From Billgrantia tianxiuensis (GTDB lineage: Bacteria; Pseudomonadota; Gammaproteobacteria; Pseudomonadales; Halomonadaceae): a stretch of 64,000 nucleotides of DNA. The translations under genes were made by a program, and so were the position numbers. Below the pieces are notes generated by a model. That model was not told the DNA's origin and made no database searches. It was given only the letters and a program-made list of their open reading frames with translations. The stretch lies in NCBI RefSeq assembly GCF_009834345.1, contig NZ_CP035042.1:4154001-4218000 (forward strand), given 5' to 3'. This document shows, one piece after another, positions 38,182-44,707 of the stretch (position 1 is the stretch's first letter; each line of letters begins with the position of its first letter).

Positions 38182-38895
38182 TCAGCTGCCGTTCTCGTAA
38201 GCCGACTTGAGGCGATAGAACTCAGCGACGATGTCGTTCATGGCGGCGGCATCGTAGTCGCTGAGGCCGCTGACGACCAGCTTCTTCGAGCCGCTGCCGA
38301 CAGGCACGCCGCCATCGGTGATGCGGAACTCGAGCCTGACGTCGCCACGCTTGCCGGTGACGTCGAGGCTCGAGTCGACCAGCTCCAGGGAGGGAGCGAC
38401 AAGGTCGATCCGGTCGAGCGAAAAGCCCATGCTGTCGTAGATCACCAGCGGGCGCTTGGGGTTGAACATGACGCCCTGCGCCTCGAGCAGCGGCTTCAAC
38501 ACGTGCGGGAAGTTCTTTCCCGAAAAGGCCACATAGCAGCGAGTGAAGGCTTCAATGGCCGCGGCATCGTGGTTGGTATCGCCCTCGCAGCTCACTTCCA
38601 GGTACTGCTTGCCCTCTTCGTCCCTGACCTCGATCTGGCCCGCCGCGTTCTTCTCCAGGCTCAGCAAGGTTCCATCGCCTACCATGCTGCGAAAGCGAAA
38701 GTCCATGTGCCGTGAAAGGCCGAACCGGCTCAGCACCAGGGCAAATAGCAGGTCGCCGGGTACGCAAAAGCGCCGGGCCCCCGCATCGTGTATGGGATTG
38801 AAGTCCCCGGCGACGCGCTTGGCGAAGTCGCTGGCCTGCTGTGCCGAGATGCGGATGCCCGCGTCAGCCTGCGTGTGGTAAGGGTCGAGAAACAT
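38182..38895 (-). CDS. DUF3581 protein (hot-dog-like fold)
   Basis: A 237-residue protein matching the DUF3581 family. Recognisable blocks are ISAQQASDFAKRVAGDFNPIHD near the N-terminus, which recalls the MaoC-like hydratase motif with the NPIH pair, and LYDSMGFSL-type text (VIYDSMGFSLDRIDLVAP) mid-protein. The function is unknown; a hydratase or acyl-binding role is an inference from the fold. The start ATG at 38895 is preceded by AAGGACAGG. Convergent with the USP gene. Confidence 0.75.
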   Translation of the reverse strand: MFLDPYHTQADAGIRISAQQASDFAKRVAGDFNPIHDAGARRFCVPGDLLFALVLSRFGLSRHMDFRFRSMVGDGTLLSLEKNAAGQIEVRDEEGKQYLEVSCEGDTNHDAAAIEAFTRCYVAFSGKNFPHVLKPLLEAQGVMFNPKRPLVIYDSMGFSLDRIDLVAPSLELVDSSLDVTGKRGDVRLEFRITDGGVPVGSGSKKLVVSGLSDYDAAAMNDIVAEFYRLKSAYENGS

Positions 38896-39200
38896 GCGTG
38901 CTCTGGCCTGTCCTTGGTTGGAAGTGCTCAAGGGGTTGATGATGCCATTTTTTCCACCGGCGCGGCCACTTCGACCGGGCAGGATGGCGGCCCGTCCGTC
39001 GCTTCGGTACATGGTCGCCGCACCGCCGCATCAGCCATGGAATCCATGTTAATGTGAAACGAAGCATGACAGGGCATCATGGGTTTTGACGTCCTTGCAT
39101 GGGCTCGTCATTCTCGCGAAATGCCTATATTGTGCAACGACGCCTAACGGCTAAAGTACGACACATAATCATCAGGGAGCACGACATTACCGGGTCATGG
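38896..39200. other. Non-coding promoter region upstream of the structured leader
   Basis: The 305 bp between the DUF3581 start and the structured leader hold no ORF with a ribosome-binding site. The part at about 39040-39190 is AT-richer than its surroundings. TTGTGC at about 39132 and TAAAGT about 16 bp further on is a weak sigma-70-like pair that could drive the downstream operon. I see no other repeat or hairpin here. Confidence 0.4.
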
Positions 39201-39316
39201 CCGTTCCGGCTCGGTAAGGGATCGGGGGGATAACGCTATCGAGACGCTCATGAAGTCCTGGCCGACCGTCGGCGCCGATGGGCCAGGCATGAGGGCCATC
39301 TTGCCGAGCCGAACGG
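39201..39316 (+). promoter_or_regulatory. Candidate structured leader RNA (putative aptamer domain)
   Basis: CCGTTCCGGCTCGGTAAG (39201-39218) pairs with CTTGCCGAGCCGAACGG (39300-39316) to form a 17-bp helix with one bulged C. Inside lie a weak 4-bp hairpin (GATA 39229-39232 with TATC 39237-39240) and a long hairpin: CTCATG (39247-39252) with CATGAG (39288-39293), CCTGGCC (39257-39263) with GGCCAGG (39281-39287), and a capping 5-bp stem at 39267-39280. The layout is a three-way junction. It does not match the c-di-GMP-I, c-di-GMP-II, TPP, cobalamin or other riboswitch cores that I know. Function is inferred only from structure and position. Confidence 0.5.
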
Positions 39317-39318
39317 GA

Positions 39319-39363
39319 TCAGCCCAGCAATGCCTTCGGGAAGGTGGCACGTGGCTGGGCTGA
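39319..39363 (+). promoter_or_regulatory. Hairpin enclosing the ribosome-binding site of the operon
   Basis: TCAGCCCAGC (39319-39328) is the exact reverse complement of GCTGGGCTGA (39354-39363). Inside, TGCC (39331-39334) can pair with GGCA (39346-39349), or CCTTC with GAAGG. The Shine-Dalgarno GGGAAGG (39338-39344) and GTG start (39351) are thus held within the hairpin, which would block initiation unless it opens. Confidence 0.5.
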
Positions 39364-39785
39364 CACGTGCGCTGATGCTGACCCTGGTGTTGGGACTTCT
39401 GCCCCTGTCGGCCACTGCTCTTGAGCGGCAGGTCGTGCTGATCGCTCATCCGAACGTCGCCAACACCTCACTGACCCGCGATACCACCCGGGCGATCTTC
39501 GCCATGCGTCAGCGCAGCTGGCCCGATGGCCAAGCCGTTCGGGTCTTCGTGCTGCCCAACGATCATCCCGTGCATGCACGTTTCGCCAAGGAGCGGCTGA
39601 CCGTGTATCCACACCAGTTGCAGCTGGCCTGGGATCGCATGGTGTTCTCGGGAACGGGACAGGCCCCGAGCCAAGTCAACACCCAGTCTGAGATGCTGGA
39701 ACGCGTCGCCACCACGCCTGGCGCCCTTGGGTATCTGGAAAGGGAGTATCTGGATGAGAGAGTCCAAGTCATCACCATGGATTAG
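39351..39785 (+). CDS. Small periplasmic phosphate-binding-like (PBP) domain protein
   Basis: A 144-residue exported protein. The signal peptide LMLTLVLGLLPLSATA ends about residue 24. The mature part resembles the short PstS-like PBP domain: LIAHPNVANTSLTRDTTRAIFAM, FVLPNDHPVHARFAKERL, and TPGALGYLEREY near the end. Such half-size proteins often lack a cognate ABC transporter and accompany sensory genes. The GTG at 39351 is preferred (GGGAAGG six bases upstream); an in-frame ATG at 39330 has no good site. The 3' end overlaps the next gene by 32 bp. It is the first gene of a three-gene operon. Confidence 0.72.
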   Translation: MAGLTRALMLTLVLGLLPLSATALERQVVLIAHPNVANTSLTRDTTRAIFAMRQRSWPDGQAVRVFVLPNDHPVHARFAKERLTVYPHQLQLAWDRMVFSGTGQAPSQVNTQSEMLERVATTPGALGYLEREYLDERVQVITMD

Positions 39786-40968
39786 CCGCCGCTCGCGTCC
39801 GGTGCTCCTGGCACTGGCTCTCGCCTGGGCGCCTGCGGCCGTGGCGGAAGGCGTCATGGATACCTTGCAGGTACATGGCTTCCTCAGCCAGGCGCTGGTC
39901 ATTACCGATCACAACAATTTCTTCGGGCCCAGCAGCAGTGGCGGCGGCAGTCTCAAGTACACCGAGATCGGCGCCAATGCCTCGATCCGCCCACGCCCCG
40001 ATGTCCTGGTGGCCGCCCAAGTGCTCAGCCGCCGGGCCGGTGGCGACGGCAGCGATGCTCGACCGGCGCTCGACTATGGCGTGATCGACTATCAACCGCT
40101 CTCCGACCAGCGGCGTACCCTGGGCATTCAGCTCGGGCGTTTCAAGAACCCTTTCGGCTTCTACAACCAAACCCGGGACGTCGCCTTCACACGCCCCAGC
40201 ATCCTGCTGCCCCAGTCGATCTATTTCGATCGTACCCGCTCGCTGGGACTTGCTGCGGATGGCTTGACCGCCTACTACGAAGAGAGAATTCCTACCGGCA
40301 CCGTTCGTACGCAGTTGGGGATAGGTAATACACAAGCAGGTGACGACCTGAGACGCACCATGCGACTGGAAAACACTCCTGGATCGTTGGAACCCAGGAG
40401 TTCGGTCATCGGACAGGTGCGTTACGAACATGACGGGGGCCGCATTGTGGCCGCACTCAGCGGCGCCAGCGCTCGTGCTCGCTTCGAGGCCGGCACCCCC
40501 GGCATGAGCGATGGGAATTTCAAGTTCCAACCTTGGATACTGTCGCTGCAATATAACGCCGAACAGTGGAGCCTAACGGGTGAGTACGCTCTCAGAAGCT
40601 CGACCTTGGATGGCTTTGCCAATCCATTCATGAACTTCGATGTCACCGGAGAGAGCTGGTACGTACAATACGCGCGTCGGTTCAATGGCAATTGGCAATG
40701 GCTGATTCGCTATGATCGCCTGGTCAATAATCGGGACGATAGGTCGGGGAAGGCCTTCGAGGCCATGGGAGGCGGGCCAGCCCACACCCAATACGCCAAT
40801 GACGTGACTCTAGGCGTTCAATGGACCGTGACACCTCGGGTTCTTCTCGCTGCTGAATACCATCACGTCGATGGTACGGGCTGGTTACCACTACAAGATG
40901 AGCCCGACCCCTCAGAGACGCGCCGACGCTGGAACATGCTGCTATTTCAGCTCTCTCTGCGCTTCTGA
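39754..40968 (+). CDS. Outer-membrane beta-barrel (porin-like) protein
   Basis: A 404-residue exported protein with a signal peptide (VLLALALAWAPAAVA). It has alternating amphipathic strands throughout (for example YTEIGANASIRPRPDVLVAAQVL and TLGIQLGRFKNPFGFYNQTRDVAFTRP) and ends in QLSLRF, with a terminal Phe as the outer-membrane assembly signal. It resembles porin-like proteins of the DUF3138/TonB-independent type with the motif GRFKNPFG. The start ATG follows AAAGGGAG. It overlaps the PBP gene (39785), so is probably cotranslated. It might be the outer-membrane partner of the PBP. Confidence 0.72.
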   Translation: MRESKSSPWISRRSRPVLLALALAWAPAAVAEGVMDTLQVHGFLSQALVITDHNNFFGPSSSGGGSLKYTEIGANASIRPRPDVLVAAQVLSRRAGGDGSDARPALDYGVIDYQPLSDQRRTLGIQLGRFKNPFGFYNQTRDVAFTRPSILLPQSIYFDRTRSLGLAADGLTAYYEERIPTGTVRTQLGIGNTQAGDDLRRTMRLENTPGSLEPRSSVIGQVRYEHDGGRIVAALSGASARARFEAGTPGMSDGNFKFQPWILSLQYNAEQWSLTGEYALRSSTLDGFANPFMNFDVTGESWYVQYARRFNGNWQWLIRYDRLVNNRDDRSGKAFEAMGGGPAHTQYANDVTLGVQWTVTPRVLLAAEYHHVDGTGWLPLQDEPDPSETRRRWNMLLFQLSLRF

Positions 40969-41012
40969 GAATTGGCCCGCCATCTTTCATGAATCGGCCA
41001 GGGAATGCCAGT

Positions 41013-43838
41013 ATGAGCGAACCCACCTCCCAAGTACCTCGCCCCCGCCTGAGCCTGACTTGGCGAGTGCTGGCCTTGAGCAGCCTGGTACTGCTCGTGC
41101 TGGTGGTACTGTTCACCTGGCTCGGCCACACCAACCTGACCCGTCAGTTCGAGGAAAGTCGCAAGGAGAGCAATGCACGCGAGTCGCGCGAGATCGAACT
41201 CGCATTGCAGCGCTCCGAGATCGGCCTGCAGCGTATCGCCGCGCTGATCGCGGCATCTCCCGATCTGGGCCCGGCCCTGGCCGCGAGGAACCAGGCGGAG
41301 CTGGTCGGCTCGCTTGCGTCACAATGGCCCACGCTGCAGCTCGAGGCAGGTATCGAGGAGATCCTGGTATTCGACGCCGATGGGAGGCAACAGGCCGAGT
41401 GGGGCGAAGGCCAGCTAGACCAGGATCGGCCGATGCAAGACTGGGTTCATCAAGTCATGGAGACCGAGTACCCGCTCTCGGCACTGCGCTGCGCCAACGA
41501 TTGCCGACAATATGCCGCCGTCCCCATACTGGTCGAGGGCGCGAGCGTGGGCATGGTGATTCTGTCGCGCTCCCTGGCGGACGTGACCCGCCAGGCCCAG
41601 CAGGTCTCTGGCAGCGACGTTGCGCTGCTGGTCAGCGGCAGCCATGAAACGGAGGAAGAGCCCGAACGACACCTGACCAACTGGAACGGCTACTTGGTCG
41701 CACTGACCCATGCCGAACACTATCTTCCGATACTGCAGCGGGCCGCTCGCATGGCCATGCTCAACGACATTCTTGAAACGCCGCTGCGGTTACAGCACGA
41801 CGGTCGTGATTACGAGCTGTCCGTGGTGCGTATGGAGGCCGATAACGGGCGGCGCAGCACCGGCTTCTTTCTCCTCGCGACCGACATTACCGCACAGATT
41901 CGCGCCATCCAGAAGGACACACGCAACCTGCTGCTGGTCGGCATCGGCGGCTGGCTGGCAGCCGAGTTGCTGCTGCTGGCCATCCTGCTGCGCCCCATGG
42001 CCAGGCTGCGCCGGCTGGCCGGTGTTCTCCCGGCCCTGGCCCACGGCGGCTTCGCCGAAGCTCGCAGCGCGATTCCCATTTCACGCAGCCGGCTGGAGGA
42101 CGAGATCGACGTGCTGGAAGGCACCACGCTGGCGCTATCGGAGCAGTTGGAAACCCTGGAACGGGAGGTCAGCGCACGTGGCGCTCAGCTTGCCGAGCGC
42201 GTCGACGAGCTGGCCCGCGAGCGCGATTTCGTCGGCAGCCTGCTGGACACGGCACGCGTTTTCATCGTCACCCAGGATGAGCAAGGCTACATCACGCTGG
42301 TCAACGACTATGCCCTCACGACCCTGGCCATGCAGGAAGAGCGCCTGCTTGGCCGCTCGTTCGATGAGGTTTTTCTCTCACGCGGCGGTGACGGTGACAA
42401 CGCCGGCGAAGAAGTGCCCCAGGAGGAGCGTAGCCTGACCACGGCGGATGGACTCCAGCGGACCATCGCCTGGTACCACGCCCCGCTATCACGCAGCGAC
42501 GCGCGGGCGGCACGCATCTCGGTCGGCCTCGACATCACCGAACGTAAGCTCGCCGAGGCGCGCCTCACCTGGCTAGCCGAACGCGACCCGCTCACGGAGC
42601 TATACAATCGGCGCTACTTCCAGGAAGCGCTAGGCAGCGCCATGCGGCGCGGACGCAGCGGCGCGGTTCTGCTGCTCGACCTCGATCATTTCAAGGACGT
42701 CAACGAGCTCAGCGGGCACCACACCGGCGACCAGCTCCTGCGCAGGGTGGGCGATACGCTATATCAGGAGTTCGGTCACTGCGGCATCATCGCCCGCCTG
42801 GGCGGCGACGAGTTCGCGCTGTTGCTGGAAGGCGCCGACACCCGGCGCGCCATCAGCATCGCCAAACAGATCACCCCGCTGCTCGACAATACCGGCCTGG
42901 ATGCCGGAGGACAGCTTCACCGGGCGACAGCCAGCCTGGGTATCGCCCTGTTCCCGATCCACGGCGACAACCCCGCCGACCTGATGGCCAATGCCGACCT
43001 GGCCATGTACAAGGCCAAGGAGAGCAGCGCCCAGCGCTGGCATCTGCTCTCGACCCTCGAGCGCGCCAAGGACGAGCTGCAGGAGCGTGTTTATTGGGTG
43101 GAACGGATTCGCCAGGCGATCGACGAAGAGGGTTTCGAGCTGATGGTACAGCCGATCGTACGCTTGAGCGATGGCGACGTGCGTCATTACGAAGTGCTCT
43201 TGCGCATGCGCGGCCCCAAGGGAGCACTCATCTCACCCGCCCACTTCATTCCGGTGGCGGAGCGCAGCGGGCAGATTGTACAGATCGACCGCTGGGTACT
43301 GCGCCATAGCCTGCGCGCCTTGAGTCATGTCCAGGCGCAGGGCATCAGCCTCGCCGTCAACCTGTCGGGGCAGACGCTGCACGACGAGGAGCTTCAACAG
43401 TTTCTCATGGAAGAGCTGTCGGCCACCGGCGCGGATCCTCGCCACTTGATCCTCGAGATTACCGAGACCGCGGCGGTTACCGATTTTTCCAGCGCACGAG
43501 GCGTCCTCCAGGCCCTGCGCGACCTGGGCTGCCGCACCGCCCTCGACGACTTCGGGGTTGGCTTCAGCAGCTTCCATTATCTCGGCGAACTCCCCGTCGA
43601 CTTCATCAAGATCGATGGCGCCTTCATACGCACCCTGATCACCAGCCCGGACAGCCAGGTCATCGTCAAGGCCATTGCCGATATCGCGGCAGGCTTCGGC
43701 AAGCTGGCCATTGCCGAGTTCGTCGATCAGGAGGCATTGATACCCCTTTTGACTTCCTATGGTATCTCGTATGGTCAGGGTTACTATCTGGGGAAACCGG
43801 CTCTACTGAGCGATACCTTTGCCATTGCCAGCAGTTGA
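41013..43838 (+). CDS. Membrane-bound GGDEF-EAL protein with periplasmic sensor and PAS domain
   Basis: A 941-residue protein. The order is TM1 (about 16-40), a periplasmic sensor of about 260 residues (dCache/CHASE-like), TM2 (about 305-328), a linker and PAS domain (about 400-520), GGDEF (RLGGDEFALLL, about 595) and EAL. The GGDEF site is intact. EAL reads EVLLRM, keeping the catalytic Glu, with LEITETAAV and LDDFGVGFSSFHYL also intact. It may both make and degrade c-di-GMP; no RxxD inhibitory site is visible. The start ATG at 41013 has CAGGGA upstream; one 24 bp earlier is weaker. It follows the PBP and barrel genes, suggesting it senses their ligand. Confidence 0.88.
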   Translation: MSEPTSQVPRPRLSLTWRVLALSSLVLLVLVVLFTWLGHTNLTRQFEESRKESNARESREIELALQRSEIGLQRIAALIAASPDLGPALAARNQAELVGSLASQWPTLQLEAGIEEILVFDADGRQQAEWGEGQLDQDRPMQDWVHQVMETEYPLSALRCANDCRQYAAVPILVEGASVGMVILSRSLADVTRQAQQVSGSDVALLVSGSHETEEEPERHLTNWNGYLVALTHAEHYLPILQRAARMAMLNDILETPLRLQHDGRDYELSVVRMEADNGRRSTGFFLLATDITAQIRAIQKDTRNLLLVGIGGWLAAELLLLAILLRPMARLRRLAGVLPALAHGGFAEARSAIPISRSRLEDEIDVLEGTTLALSEQLETLEREVSARGAQLAERVDELARERDFVGSLLDTARVFIVTQDEQGYITLVNDYALTTLAMQEERLLGRSFDEVFLSRGGDGDNAGEEVPQEERSLTTADGLQRTIAWYHAPLSRSDARAARISVGLDITERKLAEARLTWLAERDPLTELYNRRYFQEALGSAMRRGRSGAVLLLDLDHFKDVNELSGHHTGDQLLRRVGDTLYQEFGHCGIIARLGGDEFALLLEGADTRRAISIAKQITPLLDNTGLDAGGQLHRATASLGIALFPIHGDNPADLMANADLAMYKAKESSAQRWHLLSTLERAKDELQERVYWVERIRQAIDEEGFELMVQPIVRLSDGDVRHYEVLLRMRGPKGALISPAHFIPVAERSGQIVQIDRWVLRHSLRALSHVQAQGISLAVNLSGQTLHDEELQQFLMEELSATGADPRHLILEITETAAVTDFSSARGVLQALRDLGCRTALDDFGVGFSSFHYLGELPVDFIKIDGAFIRTLITSPDSQVIVKAIADIAAGFGKLAIAEFVDQEALIPLLTSYGISYGQGYYLGKPALLSDTFAIASS

Positions 43839-43888: not shown

Positions 43889-44707
43889 ATGGGACGCAGC
43901 AGAATTTCCGAGCTTGGAAGGGATAACCGAAGCGACCTTTTCTCGCAACTGGAGGAGGATTTTGCCTTCACGCTGGCTCATGACGAACGGTCCAGGCAAC
44001 GCGTCTATCGCCTGAGATATCGAATCTATTGCCAGGAGATCGGATACAACCCACCTAACGAGGACGATGCGGCCCTAGAGCAGGATGCCTACGACGAAAG
44101 CGCTCTACACTGCCTCCTTGTGCACCGCAAGTCGGGTATTGCAGCGGGCTGTTTCCGATTAGTACTGCCCGCTCCAGGCAAAGATCCGAAGATAAGGCTC
44201 CCGCTACAGGAATATGGCGGAACTAGTCTGACCCACAAGGCGCTGCACCCAAGCCTGCTGCCCATTGAGGAAATTTGCGAGATATCGCGCTTTGCTACCG
44301 CCCGTGAGTTCCGCAATCGCCCGATCAATCATGAGACGCTCGACAAACCCACCTACGACTTTACCCTTGAGGAGCGACGCGTCTTTCCACTACTGACAAT
44401 CGCCCTGTTCCTGGCCACCCATGCGCTGGTTGGACTGGTGGATCGCCGCCATATCTTTGCCATGATGGCGTCTCGCCTGCCGCGGCTGCTGGCCATGTCG
44501 GGATTTCGCTTCCAGCGCATCGGCGATGCCATCGAGCTACATGGCCGACGCAATGCCTTTTATATCGACAACGTCATGGCGCAGCGCGAGATGCGTCGTG
44601 AACTGCTCGAACCCTACCGGCATATTCACAGGCAGCTCGCCAGCCAGTTGCCGCGGGCGATCGCCAATGTTGCCCCACTCCCGCTCCGCATATTGGAAGA
44701 GCCGTGA
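43889..44707 (+). CDS. PEP-CTERM/exosortase-system-type acyltransferase (GNAT, autoinducer-synthase related)
   Basis: A 272-residue protein of the TIGR03694-type group, a branch of the GNAT/N-acyl-amino-acid synthase superfamily. Marks are VYRLRYRIYCQEIGYNPPNEDD near the N-terminus, EEICEISRFATAREFRNR (the LuxI-like ExSRF-type motif) and FPLLTIALFLATHALVG. Such enzymes use acyl-ACP or acyl-CoA to acylate an amino acid or polyamine. No exosortase, PEP-CTERM protein or LuxR partner is visible. The start ATG follows AAGGAG. Codon usage is less GC-rich than neighbouring genes, a possible sign of transfer. Its last 171 bp overlap the convergent lipoprotein gene. Confidence 0.7.
   Translation: MGRSRISELGRDNRSDLFSQLEEDFAFTLAHDERSRQRVYRLRYRIYCQEIGYNPPNEDDAALEQDAYDESALHCLLVHRKSGIAAGCFRLVLPAPGKDPKIRLPLQEYGGTSLTHKALHPSLLPIEEICEISRFATAREFRNRPINHETLDKPTYDFTLEERRVFPLLTIALFLATHALVGLVDRRHIFAMMASRLPRLLAMSGFRFQRIGDAIELHGRRNAFYIDNVMAQREMRRELLEPYRHIHRQLASQLPRAIANVAPLPLRILEEP

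Follow-up and report, generated by a model that had tools for sequence, protein, structure and literature searches.

The window analysed here, a 64 kb stretch of a 5.0 Mb single-contig genome, contains a probable leader, flanked on one side by a divergent DUF3581 gene (38182-39012, minus strand) and on the other by a PBP-like gene with a GTG start at 39351, a start codon found at the equivalent place in the 19 leaders compared. The PBP-like gene is followed by genes for a porin-like outer membrane protein and a dCache_3-PAS-GGDEF-EAL protein (Table 1). The start of the porin-like ORF is uncertain, and the ORF as listed overlaps the end of the PBP-like gene. Directly 3' of the GGDEF-EAL gene stands an acyltransferase gene (TIGR03694), which probably belongs to the operon, as judged by its spacing. 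Relatives of the PBP gene are present in 120 of the 201 family genomes drawn, and a second, distant PBP-like relative (31% identity) is encoded in the same genome (G000, C1, 4372737-4373126).

Table 1. Features of the leader region and the downstream genes, in window coordinates.
Feature	Position	Strand	Basis
SD-like motif CAGGGAG near the likely leader 5' end	39173..39179	+	alignment of 18 leaders
P1 hairpin, 5' arm (ATTACCGGG)	39186..39194	+	pairing counts, compensatory changes
17-bp closing helix of the earlier note (39201-39218 with 39300-39316)	39201..39316	+	fold; duplex z
P1 hairpin, 3' arm (CTCGGTAAG); same bases in 5' arm of 17-bp helix	39210..39218	+	fold, pairing counts, duplex test
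Conserved core, 45 nt (46 in the window strain, one extra G)	39218..39263	+	between-clade identity, 19 leaders
P2, possible hairpin within the core (39222-39229 with 39236-39242)	39222..39242	+	98.1% of cells paired
37-codon reading frame across the PBP start, ATG 39250 to TGA 39361-39363	39250..39363	+	frame scan
P3 hairpin (39257-39262 with 39282-39287)	39257..39287	+	93.5% of cells paired
10-bp start hairpin (39319-39328 with 39354-39363)	39319..39363	+	fold, pairing counts
Shine-Dalgarno GGGAAGG of the PBP gene	39338..39344	+	sequence
PBP-like secreted protein, start GTG 39351	39351..39785	+	PF12849 E 3.2e-4, under Pfam cut-off
Porin-like outer membrane protein	39727..40968	+	PF13609 E 3e-4, under cut-off
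dCache_3-PAS-GGDEF-EAL protein	40989..43838	+	domain search
PEP-CTERM/exosortase-associated acyltransferase family protein	43889..44707	+	TIGR03694, 168.5 bits vs cut-off 111.95

A consensus scan of 38990-39400 revealed no sigma-70-like promoter, and no terminator-like site that could act as an intrinsic terminator was found in the same interval. Close to where the leader probably begins, the CAGGGAG motif is altered in L016, L019, L057, L021 and L022. Further upstream, in the divergent intergenic DNA, four of the 11 leaders inspected (L016, L017, L021 and L022) carry a perfect 14-bp palindrome, GATATACGTATATC, which is a possible operator; a diverged version is found in the window near 39119-39136.

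We compared the leader with known RNA families. Rfam returned no match at the gathering score across the 64 kb; on 38950-39500, a threshold of E <= 10 yielded two unrelated matches only, both far under the gathering score, and on five related loci a threshold of E <= 1 yielded one unrelated weak match. Membership in a known RNA family was rejected on the basis of these results, in agreement with the earlier note, according to which the leader matches neither c-di-GMP-I/II nor another known riboswitch. The leader was likewise not found in the literature on Halomonas riboswitches, Halomonadaceae RNA motifs or Billgrantia untranslated regions, as judged by titles and abstract openings among the matches listed, and its absence from print is stated at that level.

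To describe its distribution we used a covariance model built from 18 leaders, with stricter filters in the family and class searches that lose some weak matches. At E <= 0.1 the model matches 21 of 275 family genomes, 20 of them with E <= 5.4e-10 and one (G268) with E 0.07; the latter was taken as chance, and its locus is without the PBP gene. The 20 strong matches are present in one copy per genome, all belong to one genus (Billgrantia and close Halomonas), and all 20 have the PBP gene directly downstream. Among 369 class genomes drawn, the model matches only the window's own. Matches in L009 and L010, which fall within long open frames at a distance from the PBP gene, were dropped as chance, and the best hit of the R1 search against 23 loci of other clades (E 0.14) was also taken as chance. 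As far as searched, the leader occurs in one copy, before one operon and in one genus. In the analyses below, alignment A1 comprises 18 leaders (without L139 and L147), and the identity, folding, accessibility and duplex tests comprise 19 (without L147).

In the window strain, the leader region folds strongly. The MFE fold of 39190-39375 has an energy of -92.9 kcal/mol (z -2.97), and 39199-39318 folded alone reaches -60.6 kcal/mol (z -2.92), with 0 of 200 shuffles equally stable in both cases. The earlier note had read three elements from this sequence, and all three appear in the MFE fold: the 17-bp helix, with one bulged base at 39207; a long hairpin at 39247-39293; and the perfect 10-bp start hairpin, with the Shine-Dalgarno (SD) and GTG inside its loop. 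The same note took the 17-bp helix to close an aptamer, and this part does not hold for the family. The duplex z of the helix is -3.81 in the window strain (L013) and -4.36 in its 97%-identical relative L014, but it falls below -1.64 in just four of the 19 leaders, L020 and L021 being the other two, and the mean is -0.94 over the 19 leaders and -0.57 over the 17 without L013 and L014. Furthermore, when the window leader is recut to begin 40 nt upstream of the core and to end 135 nt downstream of the core start, its z is only -1.17, and the 19 leaders cut in the same way are unremarkable (mean z +0.19, none below -1.64), which we count against reading the region as an RNA leader. The strong fold is therefore a property of the strain that depends on the cut, not a property of the family, and the striking architecture is mostly private to the window strain and its nearest relative.

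The conserved element is the 45-nt core, which in most leaders reads GGGATCGGGGG followed by C..TATCGA.ACGC.CA.GA.GTCC.GGCC. Between-clade identity over 19 leaders is 0.81 in the core, 0.45 in the next 35 nt, 0.35 in the segment -40..-14 before GTG, 0.83 in the SD segment (-14..GTG+3) and 0.54 in the first PBP codons, and the invariant columns in the alignment of 18 leaders mark the core as near invariant. Within the core, the dyad TATCGATA is intact in 13 of 20 leaders and broken in seven, which speaks against a symmetric DNA operator.

Three hairpins were evaluated in and around the core. For P1, 90 of 99 cells are paired and four columns are changed on both sides in 11 chosen leaders, a set that leaves out the near duplicates L014 and L025 together with five leaders without P1. 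At least as many double changes as observed occurred in 102 of 5000 shuffles, and at least as many extra pair types in 1591; no shuffle attained the observed number of paired cells. When all 18 rows are counted (L023, with its hairpin in another register, left out, and L147 not included), 116 of 162 cells are paired, P1 having been lost in five leaders that belong to a single subclade; these five keep the core and form 0-4 of the nine pairs, a loss that counts against the RNA-leader reading. As a local hairpin, P1 has a mean z of -1.2 (below -1.64 in 8/19 leaders). As a free duplex it has a mean z of -0.77 (below -1.64 in 5/19), no better than the 17-bp helix, which we likewise count against that reading. 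The helix takes up the 3' arm of P1, and the two are therefore mutually exclusive. Because the 19-leader mean of the helix is as low as -0.94, the duplex test by itself does not place P1 above it; the compensatory changes do.

P2 shows no changes on both sides of a pair, and covariation neither supports nor refutes it. P3 has one pair changed on both sides and a local-fold mean z of -1.13 (below -1.64 in 5/19 leaders); in the window strain it is lengthened by CTCATG/CATGAG to give the long hairpin mentioned above. Taken together, 95.8% of the P2 and P3 cells are paired versus 26-49% in slid controls, and the covariation is weak: 24 of 500 shuffles reach both the covariation score and the cell count, and 209 of 500 reach the number of double-change pairs. 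The alifold energy, only -7.8 kcal/mol, was also counted against the RNA-leader reading. The check for compensatory changes in homologous leaders that the earlier note had proposed is thus positive for P1 in the 11 chosen leaders and weak for P2 and P3, while the 17-bp helix is not conserved.

Riboswitch expression platforms hide or free the SD, or form a terminator, and the earlier note had assigned such a role to the start hairpin. In this hairpin, the SD and GTG 39351-39353 both lie in a 25-nt loop, and the 3' arm begins at codon 2. In eight clade-A leaders, 68 of 80 cells are paired (13-34 of 80 in slid controls) and two columns are changed on both sides, with 413 of 5000 shuffles reaching the count of 68; in the other clades, 11 leaders can form 1-7 of the ten pairs at that position. 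The SD-start segment is unpaired with a value of 0.45-0.46 in L013, L017 and L019 versus 0.26-0.29 in shuffles (0.45 versus 0.26 in the window), and it is clearly less accessible than in shuffles only in L139 and L024 (0.18-0.19 versus 0.30-0.31). Over the 19 leaders the mean accessibility z is +0.35; on average, the segment is no less accessible than in shuffles, and hiding of the SD is not supported as a rule or as a family trait.

A feature absent from the earlier note is a reading frame that overlaps the PBP start. The core, read as GGA TCG GGG GAN, lies in a frame that is open for 46-60 codons in 20/20 leaders and that ends in 19 of them with a TGA at GTG+13, counted from the first base of GTG. 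The exception, L051, has its stop in another phase, at +8, and is counted against the RNA-leader reading. With the extra G of L013 and L014 set aside, the core-to-GTG distances in these 19 leaders are 129, 132, 156, 159, 162 and 171, all multiples of three, and the window strain differs from L017 by insertions of 2 nt and 1 nt that sum to three. Each spacer would be open by chance with P 0.3-0.8, and the TGA partly follows from the CTG (Leu) codon of the PBP N terminus and the A after it.

A conserved start codon with an SD was not found for the leader frame: an in-frame start is present at core codons 10-13 in 13 of 20 leaders, with no good SD by eye, and the ATG near the leader 5' end is replaced by ACG in the window strain and lies out of frame in some other leaders. 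The variable sites of seven clade-A leaders (without L022) are distributed 20/20/21 over the codon positions, and the coding z of the open frame in 18 leaders is -0.19 for the core and 0.0 and 0.18 for longer blocks. With neither codon-position bias nor a coding score, a conserved peptide is not supported, and we rejected a protein-coding explanation as unsupported in any frame. The three close clade-B leaders, with variable sites of 0/4/6, offer too few sites to judge.

To place the overlap in a wider context, we used 86 distinct upstream regions from 103 oriented loci, 12 loci that short tblastn left unoriented being omitted; a simple rule served to assign the PBP starts, the homologues are related, and two (L062 and L063) come from outside the family. 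A same-phase frame with its stop no more than 30 nt from the PBP start is found in 65/86 homologues, and one in the other phase in 11/86; when an ORF of 15 or more codons beginning with ATG is required, the counts are 45/86 and 6/86, respectively. The ATG-ORF test gave 0/27 in the same phase and 3/27 in the other phase for control genes with free upstream DNA, a small set, taken from a crude gene finder, in which one gene can be represented by several species. Where another gene lies upstream, control genes gave 31/102 and 11/102.

Other leader types precede the same PBP gene elsewhere in the Halomonadaceae. At 33 loci of other clades (L041, L039, L071, L105 and others), a different conserved leader contains GGGAGAA or a similar motif, and about 8 nt further on AUC, AUU or AUA opens a frame (25, 6 and 2 of 33); AUG does so in 0/33, given a search pattern that asked for AUH and that no row failed. 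This frame is 34 codons long in 21 of the 33, where codon 16 is ATG, GTG or TTG (14, 5 and 2), no stop occurs, and the codon positions show no bias (27/26/26). This second leader type combines conserved sequence with a weak consensus structure (-3.7 kcal/mol, 27 sequences). The third type (L027, L033, L034, L035, L037 and L040) holds a short ATG-started ORF, read as 24-25 codons, that ends in ...TWRG or similar and, in the same phase, runs across the PBP ATG.

The conserved leader is probably a control element. The proposal of a new cis-regulatory RNA in the earlier note is partly upheld, in that the leader is conserved, is absent from Rfam, shows compensatory changes in P1 and stands before a PBP-like/porin-like/dCache-PAS-GGDEF-EAL series; the architecture on which the proposal was built is not the conserved part. 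We favor, with a confidence somewhat short of even, the view that the PBP-porin-GGDEF/EAL operon has a cis-acting, clade-specific 5' leader that would control translation. In its favor are the between-clade identity of the core, its single copy per genome before one and the same gene, P1 and P3 in most leaders, the P2/P3 pairing compared with slid controls, the open frame across the PBP start and the broken core dyad. According to this proposal: (i) the leader region would be transcribed; (ii) a factor or ligand would recognize the RNA of the 45-nt core; (iii) the state of the core would alter translation of the leader frame; and (iv) coupling at the overlapping stop and start would pass the effect on to PBP and the rest of the operon. 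Competition between the 17-bp helix and P1 for one strand could add a switch in the window strain, which is not a family trait.

Several other explanations have to be weighed. A simpler arrangement, which we regard as unlikely although it deserves serious consideration, is plain translational coupling, where the leader holds a short upstream cistron with an irrelevant peptide, ribosomes ending at the TGA re-initiate at GTG 39351, and control acts on the upstream start. The open frame with its stop at GTG+13, the phase-preserving spacings and insertions, and the same-phase overlap among homologues versus free-upstream control genes all agree with coupling, and iraD provides a tested precedent in the available part of its description (PMC5574718). 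Against it, no start codon is conserved, an in-frame start at core codons 10-13 being present in 13/20 leaders and lacking a good SD by eye, the 5' ATG is lost or out of frame, the codon positions vary about equally, the spacers are readily open by chance, the same phase is frequent in control genes with a gene upstream, and the CTG+A of the PBP N terminus supplies the TGA. Coupling also leaves the nucleotide conservation of the core unexplained. Another reading places control at the DNA level, with the core as a transcription-factor site or promoter part and the hairpins as incidental, a reading that the divergent intergenic region, with the DUF3581 gene on its other side, and the upstream palindrome in four of 11 leaders make conceivable. 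We consider it improbable: only a short distance separates the core from the SD downstream, the promoter may lie in another conserved stretch that precedes the core, the core dyad is intact in 13/20 leaders only, and P1 pairing is kept through double changes, with some G-U pairs on the plus strand.

Two further readings remain. Binding of CsrA/RsmA to the leader, as for other c-di-GMP genes and possibly via the overlapping frame as at iraD, is very improbable. The genome has a csrA gene, the leader is GGA-rich, and literature among the matches listed links CsrA/RsmA with c-di-GMP genes, as far as its titles and abstract openings go; in addition, the available part of PMC5574718 describes CsrA acting at iraD on a leader ORF coupled to its target. 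CsrA is nevertheless a weak candidate because ANGGA, given as the CsrA motif in the accessible text of PMC12889724, is not kept, being found near the 5' end in 8/20 leaders and at the core in 12/20. Least probable is a metabolite riboswitch with the aptamer and expression platform of the earlier note. A near-invariant core next to hairpins, and the mutual exclusion of P1 and the 17-bp helix in the window strain, would suit a riboswitch, but its closing helix is not conserved, the SD is not hidden as a rule, the leader is confined to one operon and one genus among the genomes searched, and there is no credible Rfam match even at E 10. The response to phosphate, a metal or a nucleotide that the earlier note had suggested likewise finds no support in these results.

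Returning to the favored translational leader, we also entertain a bolder and improbable version of it, in which translated regulatory leaders of a new kind would be at work: an RNA core conserved in its nucleotides, placed in an open frame without a fixed peptide, would set the translation of the leader, the stop/start overlap would signal to the c-di-GMP operon, and different cores would have arisen at this position in different Halomonadaceae clades, with the frame overlap retained. If real, the leader adds an unlisted cis-regulatory element to c-di-GMP control in halophiles, and it shows that a striking fold of a single strain can mislead when what is conserved is a short core together with an overlapping frame. 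Frame overlap of this kind, present at the operon in many Halomonadaceae, would allow a direct test of coupling in which no peptide is conserved.

Among known systems, the c-di-GMP-I and c-di-GMP-II riboswitches occur in leaders of c-di-GMP-related genes. The present leader resembles them in standing before such genes and differs in having no such Rfam match in the window or in five related loci. E. coli iraD offers a closer comparison: its leader contains a short ORF that runs with its stop into the iraD start, CsrA acts on this ORF, and a translational route via an overlapping leader ORF thus exists (PMC5574718, in its available part). As far as that part describes iraD, both leaders have an ORF stop that overlaps the start region of the regulated gene, and both have RNA structure. 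The iraD stop overlaps the start codon itself, whereas the present stop lies 13 nt inside the gene; the iraD structure hides the SD and its CsrA sites are proven, whereas the present SD is not hidden as a rule and ANGGA is not conserved. What sets the present leader apart from iraD, as there described, is its main feature, the nucleotide-conserved 45-nt core.
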